Origin: an uncultured SAR86 cluster bacterium
GTDB taxonomy: Bacteria > Pseudomonadota > Gammaproteobacteria > Magnimaribacterales > D2472
Direction of reading: 5' to 3'
DNA length: 64,000 nucleotides
NCBI GenBank assembly: GCA_902591925.1
Contig: CACJCN010000002.1
Location: 1-64,000, forward strand
Shown: positions 30,905 to 32,903 of the stretch, piece after piece
Numbering within the stretch: the stretch's first letter is position 1
How the letters are laid out: each line of letters starts with the position of its first letter
Notes under the pieces: generated by a model
Seen by the model: the letters and a program-made list of their open reading frames with translations, nothing else
Told to the model about the DNA's origin: nothing
Databases searched by the model: none
Translations under genes and position numbers: made by a program

Positions 30905-31507
30905 ATGGCTCATTTTATTAAAGTCTCTATAACAGTATATGTATTTTCTATGTTTTGCTATTCAGTTTGGTATTTTCTTCAAGTGCTTGATATTGCTAAC
31001 TTAAACCCAAATGGTGAGTGGCTAGGAAGCTTATGTTATCTCCCTCATGGTTCAAGAGTATTAATGTTTTGTTTTTTTAGATATTACTCTTTACCAGCAT
31101 TATATTTAGCAGAAATCACAGGTCCCTCATTAATTAATCATCAAGATTACATGACTGGTTGGTCTATTGCAGCAATAGCATCATTATTTTCAGTTGTTGC
31201 AGCAGTTGAATTAGTGAAATGGACAAGAGCAACTCCTGGATTTTTTTCATTCTTTAAACAGGTAAACTTTGAAAACTATAAGTTTTTGTATTTGGTGATC
31301 ATTGTTTCATCTTTGATGAATGGATTGTTTGTAAATCTCATTTTATCAATCATTAATTCAATAAATTCTATAAGTGTTATTACTGTATTTAGATTTGCTG
31401 TTGGCGATTTCTTAGGCGCATCAGCAGTTATAGCAGCATTGTGGGTAATCTTCAGAACCCTTAAAGACACACGTTTAATCATAGAACCAAATATAGAAGA
31501 CAAATAA
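30905..31507 (+). CDS. Integral membrane protein, MASE1-like architecture, unknown function
   Basis: A 200-residue protein with about five hydrophobic helices (roughly 6-26, 45-75, 82-103, 125-150, 160-182). LCYLPHGSRVLMFCFFRYYSLPALYLAEI recalls the membrane sensor domains (MASE1 type) that carry an LP-x-G motif after the first helix, but no signalling output domain is attached. It lies 15 bases after the winged-helix gene, suggesting a membrane-sensor/regulator pair. Function not assigned. Confidence 0.6.
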   Translation: MAHFIKVSITVYVFSMFCYSVWYFLQVLDIANLNPNGEWLGSLCYLPHGSRVLMFCFFRYYSLPALYLAEITGPSLINHQDYMTGWSIAAIASLFSVVAAVELVKWTRATPGFFSFFKQVNFENYKFLYLVIIVSSLMNGLFVNLILSIINSINSISVITVFRFAVGDFLGASAVIAALWVIFRTLKDTRLIIEPNIEDK

Positions 31508-31514
31508 TCTTGTA

Positions 31515-31534
31515 TACTGTATAAATATACAGTA
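31515..31534. promoter_or_regulatory. Near-consensus LexA (SOS) box
   Basis: TACTGTATAAATATACAGTA is a palindrome with CTGT (31517-31520), eight AT-only bases, and ACAG (31529-31532), plus the flanking TA/TA seen in the strongest enterobacterial LexA sites (TACTGTATATATATACAGTA). It ends 12 bases before the ATG of the 72-residue ORF at 31547, where a bound repressor would block the promoter. The TATAAT immediately following (31533-31538) overlaps the box edge and could be the -10. Confidence 0.82.
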
Positions 31535-31546
31535 TAATTCGTAATT

Positions 31547-31765
31547 ATGAGCAATTTAATTTATCTAAAAAAAGATCCAATATTAATGGAATTAGACTCA
31601 TCTGTTGACAAAGATTCCACTAAGAAAATGTTGGCTTTCAAATTTTTTAATGGTGATGAAAGACTATTAGATAACTATCTTAAAGAAAATACTCATGAAC
31701 CAGTTAATAACACATACAATAAAGATCTTATTGAACCAAAATCACAACTTGAGTTTTCTTTTTAG
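31547..31765 (+). CDS. Small putative SOS-regulated protein with C-terminal clamp-binding-like tail
   Basis: A 72-residue soluble, charged protein with no recognised domain. It begins MSNLIYLKKDPILMELD, has a central KKMLAFKFFNGDERLLDNYLKEN, and ends PKSQLEFSF. The last six residues, QLEFSF, fit the hexapeptide form (QLxLxL) of the bacterial sliding-clamp binding motif with Phe for Leu, as seen at termini of clamp partners. It sits directly behind a near-perfect LexA box, so induction by DNA damage is likely. The clamp link is inference from six residues. The wide gap from box to ATG suggests a very short or absent leader. Confidence 0.65.
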   Translation: MSNLIYLKKDPILMELDSSVDKDSTKKMLAFKFFNGDERLLDNYLKENTHEPVNNTYNKDLIEPKSQLEFSF

Positions 31766-31800: not shown

Positions 31801-32019
31801 TATAATTTATGAAGGAGTCTTATTTAGTAATTTTTTAAGGGGATTACTAGATATGTTTATTACTACCCTGAACATGGAGGTGGTCCTATTAGTATTTATT
31901 TAATATCAGGAAACGGAGGATTTGCCTTTTGACAGAGGTAAGTTTTTAGTTTCTGGCTAACAATTGTTGCTAACAAGCGTTAGTTTATAACCCCCATTTA
32001 TTTGGGGGTTTTTATTTTA
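31801..32019 (+). ncRNA. Candidate structured leader/small RNA with terminator, upstream of DMT transporter
   Basis: A gene-free stretch starts with a perfect TATAAT (31801-31806) and ends with a strong terminator. It holds hairpins TAGTAAT/ATTACTA (31825-31831 with 31843-31849), ACTACC/GGTGGT (31862-31867 with 31879-31884, one G-U pair) and CTAAC/GTTAG (31970-31974 with 31979-31983, AAGC loop). The GGGG in the loop of the first (31839-31842) could pair with the terminator's CCCCC (31991-31995), which would be antitermination. The T-run reaches the DMT start codon. Either a cis-acting attenuator/riboswitch or an independent sRNA fits; no known class was recognised. Confidence 0.5.
31989..32019 (+). 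terminator. Rho-independent terminator abutting DMT start codon
   Basis: Stem AACCCCC (31989-31995) / GGGGGTT (32004-32010) with loop ATTTATTT, followed by TTTATTTTAT. It lies entirely between the RNA candidate and the ATG at 32022, leaving no room for a ribosome-binding site. Confidence 0.9.
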
Positions 32020-32021
32020 TT

Positions 32022-32903
32022 ATGGAATTTAAATATTGGTTAATTCTATCTATACTTGGAGCTGTTTGGGGTAGTGCCTTTATATTTATTAAAATTGCTG
32101 CACCTGAGTTTGGTGCAGTTGGACTAGTACAGACAAGGTTATTAATCGCATCATTAGTATTTTTACCAGTCCTTTTTACAAAAAAATATTTCAATCTATT
32201 AAAGCCAGCATGGAAACATTCTCTAGTTTTAGCTGTAACTAACAATGCTATCCCATTCACTCTTTTTTCATTTGGAAGTTTTGGTGCAGACTCAAATATT
32301 CTAGCAATTTTAAATGCAACAACCGCATTTAATACTATGATAATTGCTTTTTTGTGGTTGGGTGAAAAAGTCACAACTAAACAAATATTTGGTCTTATAT
32401 TAGGATTTATTGGAGTAATAATATTAGTGAATCCTGAGTCATCTTCAACTTCAATTTTTTCTGCAATACTTTGCTTAATTGGAGCTGCCTGCTATTCTTT
32501 TTCAACTGTGTTCATACAAAAATATTCAAATAATACAGACAAGTTTGTTTTAATTGGTTGGTCAATTGTATTTAGCTGTATCATCATGATTCCAATCACT
32601 CTTTTAAATTTACCATCAGAAATACCATCATCAAGAGCAATTTTGTCAGCTATATGGCTTGGTTCAATCTCTACAGGATTAGCTTTTTTTGGCTATGTTT
32701 ATCTAATTGAACAGATTGGAGCTGTTAAAACTTCAACTGTTGCTTATTTTCTTCCAATATTTGGAATCATATGGGGTGCAGTCTTTTTAAATGAAATTAT
32801 TACTTTAGGTATTATTTCAGGATGTATTACAATTCTTATTGGAGTATTTTTTGCGACATCTAATAAAAAGAATGACATAAAGGGTGAAATGCATGCTAAC
32901 TAA
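32022..32903 (+). CDS. EamA/DMT-family transporter
   Basis: A 293-residue membrane protein with ten helices in two EamA repeats: LSILGAVWGSAFIFIKIAAPEFG (about 7-29), TLFSFGSFGADSNILAILNATTAFNTMIIAFLWLGEKVT, then the second repeat from about 150 (IGAACYSFSTVFIQKYS) to ISTGLAFFGYVYLIEQIGAVKTSTVAYFLPIFGIIWGAVFLNE. It is a metabolite or amino-acid exporter of the drug/metabolite superfamily. A terminator stands directly before its ATG, so expression is probably controlled by read-through. It overlaps the rhodanese gene. Confidence 0.92.
   Translation: MEFKYWLILSILGAVWGSAFIFIKIAAPEFGAVGLVQTRLLIASLVFLPVLFTKKYFNLLKPAWKHSLVLAVTNNAIPFTLFSFGSFGADSNILAILNATTAFNTMIIAFLWLGEKVTTKQIFGLILGFIGVIILVNPESSSTSIFSAILCLIGAACYSFSTVFIQKYSNNTDKFVLIGWSIVFSCIIMIPITLLNLPSEIPSSRAILSAIWLGSISTGLAFFGYVYLIEQIGAVKTSTVAYFLPIFGIIWGAVFLNEIITLGIISGCITILIGVFFATSNKKNDIKGEMHAN

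Follow-up and report, generated by a model that had tools for sequence, protein, structure and literature searches.

What is encoded in the roughly 200 bases that separate a TATAAT box from the start codon of an EamA/DMT transporter gene in an uncultured bacterium of SAR86, a group that ranks with the most abundant uncultured bacteria of ocean surface water? The window, that is, the whole stretch of 64,000 nucleotides analysed here, belongs to a genome of 1.2 Mb (the SAR86 relatives examined range from 0.9 to 1.8 Mb), and the initial annotation of these bases was that of a ligand-sensing attenuator controlling the exporter and the rhodanese gene that lies behind it. The TATAAT at 31801-31806 is present as annotated, and so is the terminator, with a stem at 31989-32010 and a T-rich tail reaching the ATG at 32022. 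The bases were also described as a gene-free stretch with hairpins, which holds for the folding; the absence of genes is doubtful, since a 14-codon frame at 31888-31932 recurs in all 118 readable loci. The features of the locus are given below, with f1 to f4 as labels for SAR86 families.

31801-31806, + strand: -10 box (TATAAT), read from the sequence; a TATATAAT-like box stands at the same position in most f1 relatives printed
31814-32019, + strand: structured RNA with an inferred start; fold z-score of -4.61, one match in its own genome, covariance-model matches
31821-31853, + strand: hairpin P1, with arms 31821-31831 and 31843-31853; 99.0% of cells paired and 8 of 11 pairs changed on both sides (n = 18)
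31838-31869, + strand: pseudoknot of AGGG (31838-31841) with CCCU (31866-31869); pair variants across families
31876-31886, + strand: extended Shine-Dalgarno sequence GGAGGUGGUCC, 11 bp with the 3' end of the genome's own 16S rRNA (tail GGCTGGATCACCTCCTTA), including one G-U
31888-31932, + strand: 14-codon frame AUU...UUU UGA (ISIYLISGNGGFAF, first residue presumably fMet); length constancy and stop avoidance
31909-31954, + strand: hairpin P3, 31909-31914 with 31949-31954 and 31921-31926 with 31937-31942; 97.2% and 84.1% of cells paired, respectively
31957-31983, + strand: hairpin P4 (CUAAC/GUUAG), from the fold; a variable hairpin stands at the same position in relatives, by eye
31989-32019, + strand: intrinsic terminator with its T-rich tail, from the terminator search
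32022-32903, + strand: EamA/DMT transporter gene (PF00892, E = 9.8e-36), the downstream neighbour in f1 and f4

The promoter call rests on the recurrence of the -10 box in f1 relatives, because the promoter scan of the region reported no -35/-10 pair for the TATAAT at 31801. At the other end, one terminator-like site was found in the region, compared with a mean of 0.1 in shuffled sequences. The stretch between them folds at -63.6 kcal/mol, against -44.2 +/- 4.2 kcal/mol in dinucleotide shuffles, none of which (0/200) equalled it. Among 18 f1 sequences, none of 500 shuffles matched the whole structure in paired cells, double changes or covariation score, and the number of further pair types was equalled by 7 of 500; these shuffle tests ignore the relatedness of the sequences. 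Since such kinship inflates them, the weight is carried by the double changes and by a control in which the partner strand was slid by one to three columns, which lowered the paired cells in the same sequences from 95.5% to at most 51.3%. Compensatory changes, whose absence from alignments had been named as the observation that would speak against a structured element, are found in 8 of the 11 pairs of helix 1. The UGA stop of the 14-codon frame sits in the apical loop of P3, and GGA motifs, which in loops are the sites that CsrA binds in Csr/Rsm sponge RNAs, are visible by eye in the RNA.

The pseudoknot had been drawn between a GGGG in the loop of the first hairpin and the CCCCC of the terminator stem. 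Its partner is the CCCU at 31866-31869, directly after hairpin 1; among the loci where a terminator arm was found, 34 of 62 in f1 and 5 of 5 in f4 have no CCCC in it. Within the 18 near relatives the AGGG/CCCU pair is invariant and therefore uninformative. Across families it appears as CAGGG/CCCUG, GAGGG/CCCUC and AAGGG/CCCUU, with GAGA/UCUC in f4. The strands are AGGG/CCCU in 110 of 128 anchored members, UGGG in 12, where the A-U pair is lost unless the register shifts, and AGAGA in six, all with f4-type loops; the regular expression missed two of 130 members (L063 and L070), both AAGGGG/CCCTT by eye. The outer pair forms in 72 of the 110 AGGG/CCCU members, a number that none of 2000 shuffles of the partners reached (43.1 +/- 4.4), and fails in the other 38, with A-G in 37 and C-T in one. 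A crude automatic finder of P1 and the pseudoknot placed P1 wrongly in many members, and no counts were taken from it. The minimum free energy fold includes a pairing of CCCU with the Shine-Dalgarno sequence; as the basis of a switch, this pairing is, by eye, not kept in f4.

At the gathering score, the Rfam covariance models give three tRNAs in the window and nothing at the RNA, in agreement with the earlier remark that it fits no recognised riboswitch class, and a scan of eleven distant loci also gave nothing at the RNA. Under lax settings the matches were all below threshold, the best being rnk_pseudo with 25.6 bits against 55; SAM-II reached 16.8 bits on the opposite strand (gathering score 44) and nothing on the RNA's own strand, and neither the strict nor the lax matches of the window include tmRNA, 6S RNA, SRP RNA or RNase P RNA. 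Literature searches on SAR86 riboswitches and small RNAs, anti-Shine-Dalgarno RNAs, marine psRNAs, and AUU starts with Shine-Dalgarno sequences or IF3 returned no description of this RNA, and a search on a 14-residue frame with a pseudoknot found no paper; in the accessible part of PMC5069720, SAR86 has 0 occurrences. As far as these literature and Rfam searches go, the conserved RNA appears to be undescribed.

A single match is found in the genome itself, and BLAST with the 227-nt stretch gave matches in 75 of 150 relatives. In two of those 75 the matched place (L062, L069) lacks the layout, and the covariance model places a genuine copy at another position in each of the two genomes (G105 and G101). 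A first covariance model, built on 18 near relatives, matched 61 of 75 genomes of the SAR86 order, with matches in each of the four families seen and in 17 of 18 genera, and a second one, built on 30 members, matched 35 of the 40 genomes at least 90% complete and 15 of 15 genera, the genomes without a match being G002, G030, G052, G092 and G095. These matches point to one genuine copy per genome, order-wide in SAR86.

In a class-wide sample, the first model matched 3 of 370 genomes, all of the SAR86 order, and the second matched 11 of 369 at E values up to 0.1: three of SAR86, G431, G200, and six weak matches (L243 and L245-L249) that were dropped by eye, the layout of Shine-Dalgarno sequence and frame being absent from them. 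Members outside the order were added from further genome sets, namely G362 (3 of 321 genomes with the pattern), G547 (3 of 96), G572 and G568 (4 of 95), and G251 (20 of 351). The 20 genomes matched in the set of 351 gave 21 places, against eight control matches among the rows shown; G091, G094, G200, G251, G362 and G431 were judged genuine, and the remaining places were dropped as chance, most of them judged from the printed match alone. Neither G567, where the terminator part alone matched, nor a second place in G431 (L271), which did not have the layout, was counted. Beyond the SAR86 order, relatives of the RNA accordingly occur in three families of Gammaproteobacteria (f52, f62 and f103), with a patchy distribution. 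BLAST with the window RNA gave no match in a phage collection, and BLAST with an outside homologue (L244) gave none in E. coli genomes and plasmids.

What is conserved at the core of this layout, initially read as that of an attenuator, is the extended Shine-Dalgarno sequence together with the 14-codon frame. In 130 members, collected by a search that presupposes a nine-base Shine-Dalgarno core and AUU/AUC/AUA or AUG-UC starts, the duplex with the 16S rRNA spans 11-15 nt with G-U pairs allowed, compared with at most 9 before 57 ATG-started open reading frames of the window. All 119 loci that BLAST or the covariance model had located carry a ten-base core, GGAGG-YG-R-TC. The distance from GGAGG to the start codon is 7-9 nt, and the pseudoknot lies upstream, about 9-10 nt from the extended Shine-Dalgarno sequence. 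The locus thus combines both features of a non-canonical start backed by an extended Shine-Dalgarno sequence: AUU or AUC at Shine-Dalgarno spacing, and a duplex longer than usual.

A pattern search of the genome contigs gave 115 matches, of which the 80 listed include a chance match in another organism (L185), and these can test neither the AUU nor the TGAC, since both are built into the pattern. A recount was therefore made without that requirement on the 119 loci found by BLAST or covariance model, of which one (L030) is cut off and several are the same place fetched twice. In all 118 readable loci the frame has 14 codons and a UGA-C stop, with 109 AUU and nine AUC starts, the script picking the AUN start that gives the length nearest to 14. 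The frame also has 14 codons in 128 of the 130 members. Two outside members have 11. Five of 135 regions had been dropped from that set (L062, L123, L124, L125 and L185, with frames of 3 to 30 or more codons), together with members carrying an N near the core; the rows dropped before counting were L001 (duplicate), L062 and L069 (without the layout), and L030, L035 and L056 (incomplete).

Counted as distinct frames, SAR86 has 67 AUU and five AUC starts (72 in total), and the outside members have AUG in five distinct 14-codon frames. The stop codon of the 77 distinct frames is UGA in 76 and UAA in one, and the other two reading frames are interrupted by stops in 53 and 75 of them. With families assigned by peptide pattern and not by taxonomy, column shuffling predicts 6.8 in-frame stops for the 44 distinct frames of f1 and 3.2 for the 13 of f2, and none is observed in either; stop-free shuffles were 0/500 in both. 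The same test is uninformative in f3, f4 and the outside members (0.41, 0.28 and 0 stops expected), as these are too uniform or too few. Diversity by codon position averages 0.34/0.40/0.35, so that classical coding selection, which would leave a third-position excess, is not seen. In SAR86, codons 4-7 and 12 vary freely, Gly8 and Gly11 are widely kept, and the f1-f3 peptides listed have no cysteine. From these comparisons the frame looks protected, and the SAR86 peptide much less so.

Outside SAR86, the 14-codon peptides are MSNECINGASGGTC, MSNDSMCAASGATC, MSNRCIIGAPGGTC, MSNGCINGASEGAC and MSNRCMYRTSGGTC, the first of which has S2, G8, G11, G12 and C14 in common, by eye, with ISIKTNSGLLGGNC of f4. 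In family f103 (L284 and L285), the frame has 11 codons, MSDGCIEVLTG or MSNGCIEVLTG, with a UAG stop, and both the pseudoknot strands and the Shine-Dalgarno sequence are present. As in small mRNAs or dual-function RNAs, the sequence offers a conserved open frame with a ribosome-binding site. The alignments spoke against a leader peptide that would start at the ATG at 31874 (MEVVLLVFI), and this reading was rejected: several f1 relatives lack the ATG, some f1 members having ACAAAGGAGG or TACGAAGGAGG instead, and the peptide would be read in another frame than the conserved one.

Non-canonical starts seem to be used elsewhere in this genome. In its own infC (L299), AUG, GUG and UUG are all absent from the stretch that runs from the upstream in-frame stop to a PINEKI motif, which we take to resemble the N-terminus of IF3, and AUC and AUA are the only candidates there; the gene likely starts at one of these two codons. 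In E. coli, infC starts at AUU, and autoregulation by IF3 through this non-canonical start is established. The accessible part of PMC13009471 gives AUA as the start of S. aureus infC, and describes conserved AUU (cvfC1, 61 aa) and AUA (ccpN) starts with extended Shine-Dalgarno motifs in staphylococci. Given the E. coli and S. aureus precedents, an AUU-type start with an extended Shine-Dalgarno sequence is known in principle. What would be new here is this pairing in a 14-codon frame of a stand-alone structured RNA, for which the literature searches above returned no prior description.

We consider it probable, with moderate confidence, that the locus is an autonomous gene for a structured RNA, either a small mRNA or a dual-function one, in which the extended Shine-Dalgarno sequence and an AUU/AUC start that IF3 should disfavour would gate translation. 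The RNA would be transcribed as its own unit of about 200 nt, from its -10 box to its terminator, and would present an H-type pseudoknot, made of P1 and the pairing of AGGG in its loop with CCCU, upstream of the extended Shine-Dalgarno sequence, followed by the 14-codon frame, the hairpins and the terminator. A 30S subunit would bind through the duplex of 11-15 bp, and the discrimination of IF3 against AUU or AUC would make initiation slow and responsive to IF3 or to initiation capacity. Translation of the 14 codons would then open P3 during elongation, and termination at UGA-C would be slow, so that the RNA may report or buffer initiation capacity; in f1 and f4, leaky termination may additionally feed EamA. 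As the frame is kept and most of its residues are not, what counts in SAR86 is probably that ribosomes translate or occupy the RNA, more than which peptide they make. The bolder claim of a new RNA class that reads translation-initiation capacity, with a near-maximal Shine-Dalgarno sequence, a start rejected by IF3, 14 codons and a weak UGA-C stop, is put forward only tentatively; there, a 30S complex framed by the pseudoknot would sit or proceed depending on IF3, release factor or subunit supply, and the signal would be the translation event, not the peptide.

The initially proposed cis attenuator or riboswitch of the EamA exporter, in which a ligand on the pseudoknot domain would shift terminator read-through, now appears quite unlikely, even though its structural part stands: the RNA is structured, absent from Rfam, and carries a pseudoknot and a terminator. 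With families again assigned by peptide pattern, and six loci with short downstream sequence left out, tblastn with two EamA queries finds the gene directly downstream in 66 of 66 f1 and 6 of 6 f4 usable loci, but in none of the 19 f2, 27 f3 and six outside loci (52 in total). The gene to be regulated does not, then, always follow the RNA; moreover, the partner of the pseudoknot is not the terminator, Rfam recognises no aptamer, and the distance from the AUU to the EamA start varies between 121 and 224 nt in f1 and f4. No conserved antiterminator was noticed, and the one initially proposed, loop GGGG with the terminator CCCC, cannot form in the f1 and f4 arms without CCCC. Since EamA was found behind it in two SAR86 families only, the RNA is better taken as a gene of its own, and it has what such a gene would have as far as sequence can tell, namely its own -10 box, its own terminator, and a unit kept while the neighbours change. 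What favours the attenuator is the constancy of the link where it exists, and the arrangement in the window, where the EamA start lies a few bases past the T-rich tail with no visible Shine-Dalgarno sequence between, so that its expression may depend on read-through or on a leaderless start. The link may also have arisen twice, as two EamA proteins of f4 (L107 and L118) are merely 28 and 31% identical to that of the window, compared with 50-82% in the eight f1 proteins tested. A cis role is thus possible in f1 and f4, as a secondary read-through function of the RNA for EamA.

The two other alternatives turn on what is made of the frame. One is a non-coding RNA, a decoy or a ribosome-associated RNA, whose 11-15-nt complement would bind 30S subunits or the free 3' end of 16S rRNA, and whose frame would be an untranslated spacer of fixed length. 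It would suit the extreme and conserved complementarity to 16S rRNA, the use of AUU or AUC and never AUG in all 72 distinct SAR86 frames, and the poorly conserved amino acids; with no third-position excess, the frame could be a rigid spacer. We regard it as rather unlikely, because stops are avoided in f1 and f2, because the 14 codons stay constant though the spacer between the Shine-Dalgarno sequence and the AUU, the linkers and the loops all vary, and because the outside members have an AUG at the same place and residues in common. A functional peptide of 14 residues (a signal, modified or leader peptide), whose translation the RNA merely controls, is likewise given a small probability: the outside peptides are alike (MSN...C at the end) and Gly8 and Gly11 are widely kept, but the free variation of codons 4-7 and 12 in SAR86, the f1-f3 peptides listed without cysteine, and the lack of a conserved neighbour for modification or export among the loci listed argue against it. 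Stop avoidance and the AUG-type relatives are the sole results that separate the small mRNA reading from these two.

Several known systems resemble parts of this RNA. SgrS/SgrT and Spot 42/SpfP are dual-function small RNAs, each an independent gene with a short open reading frame and an intrinsic terminator; the SAR86 RNA appears to share this organization, and differs from them in its AUU start, extended Shine-Dalgarno sequence and pseudoknot. The S15-type pseudoknot operator of rpsO traps the 30S subunit on the start site, and in both RNAs a pseudoknot adjoins the ribosome-binding site. In SAR86, however, the pseudoknot lies upstream of the Shine-Dalgarno sequence and not over it, and no ribosomal protein gene was seen behind the RNA. 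SAM-II and preQ1 are H-type pseudoknot riboswitches, with which the SAR86 RNA shares a compact stem-loop and a downstream pairing strand near the Shine-Dalgarno sequence; unlike them, it has no match to their covariance models on its own strand and is not tied to one pathway gene. Finally, the staphylococcal cvfC1, ccpN and infC (PMC13009471, as far as accessible), and infC of E. coli, have an AUU-type start and an extended Shine-Dalgarno sequence conserved within a lineage, as in the SAR86 RNA. The staphylococcal starts in the accessible part of that source begin ordinary proteins (cvfC1, 61 aa), whereas the SAR86 frame has 14 codons and belongs to a stand-alone RNA with an upstream pseudoknot.

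If the small mRNA reading is true, this RNA would be one of nature's clearest examples of a very short open reading frame that begins with a non-canonical start codon. Gene callers that expect AUG, GUG or UUG and longer frames would miss its 14 codons. The RNA is a natural one and can be transferred to E. coli, where IF3-dependent start selection and the use of an extended Shine-Dalgarno sequence would then become open to test.

Regarding the neighbourhood, f4 and the window have perhaps recruited different EamA paralogues to one and the same RNA. The f3 loci read have a transporter-like gene on one side of the RNA and, in most cases, an SDR-like gene in convergent orientation on the other; in one f2 genome, panB-like and panC-like genes follow the RNA (all names by eye). 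Upstream, a 200-aa open reading frame at 30905-31507 is membrane-like by eye and has no Pfam match; many f1 loci have a similar frame ahead of the RNA. Between this frame and the RNA, a palindrome TACTGTATAAATATACAGTA at 31515-31534 precedes a 72-aa open reading frame at 31547-31765 that has no Pfam match and ends in SQLEFSF. We take the palindrome to be LexA/SOS-box-like, and the ending to resemble a beta-clamp binding motif; judging from the sequence, the frame possibly encodes an SOS-induced small protein of SAR86. Of the 60 loci printed, which exclude loci with neither box nor small open reading frame, 50 have a CTGT-N8-ACAG box ahead of the RNA, nearly always together with a similar small open reading frame.
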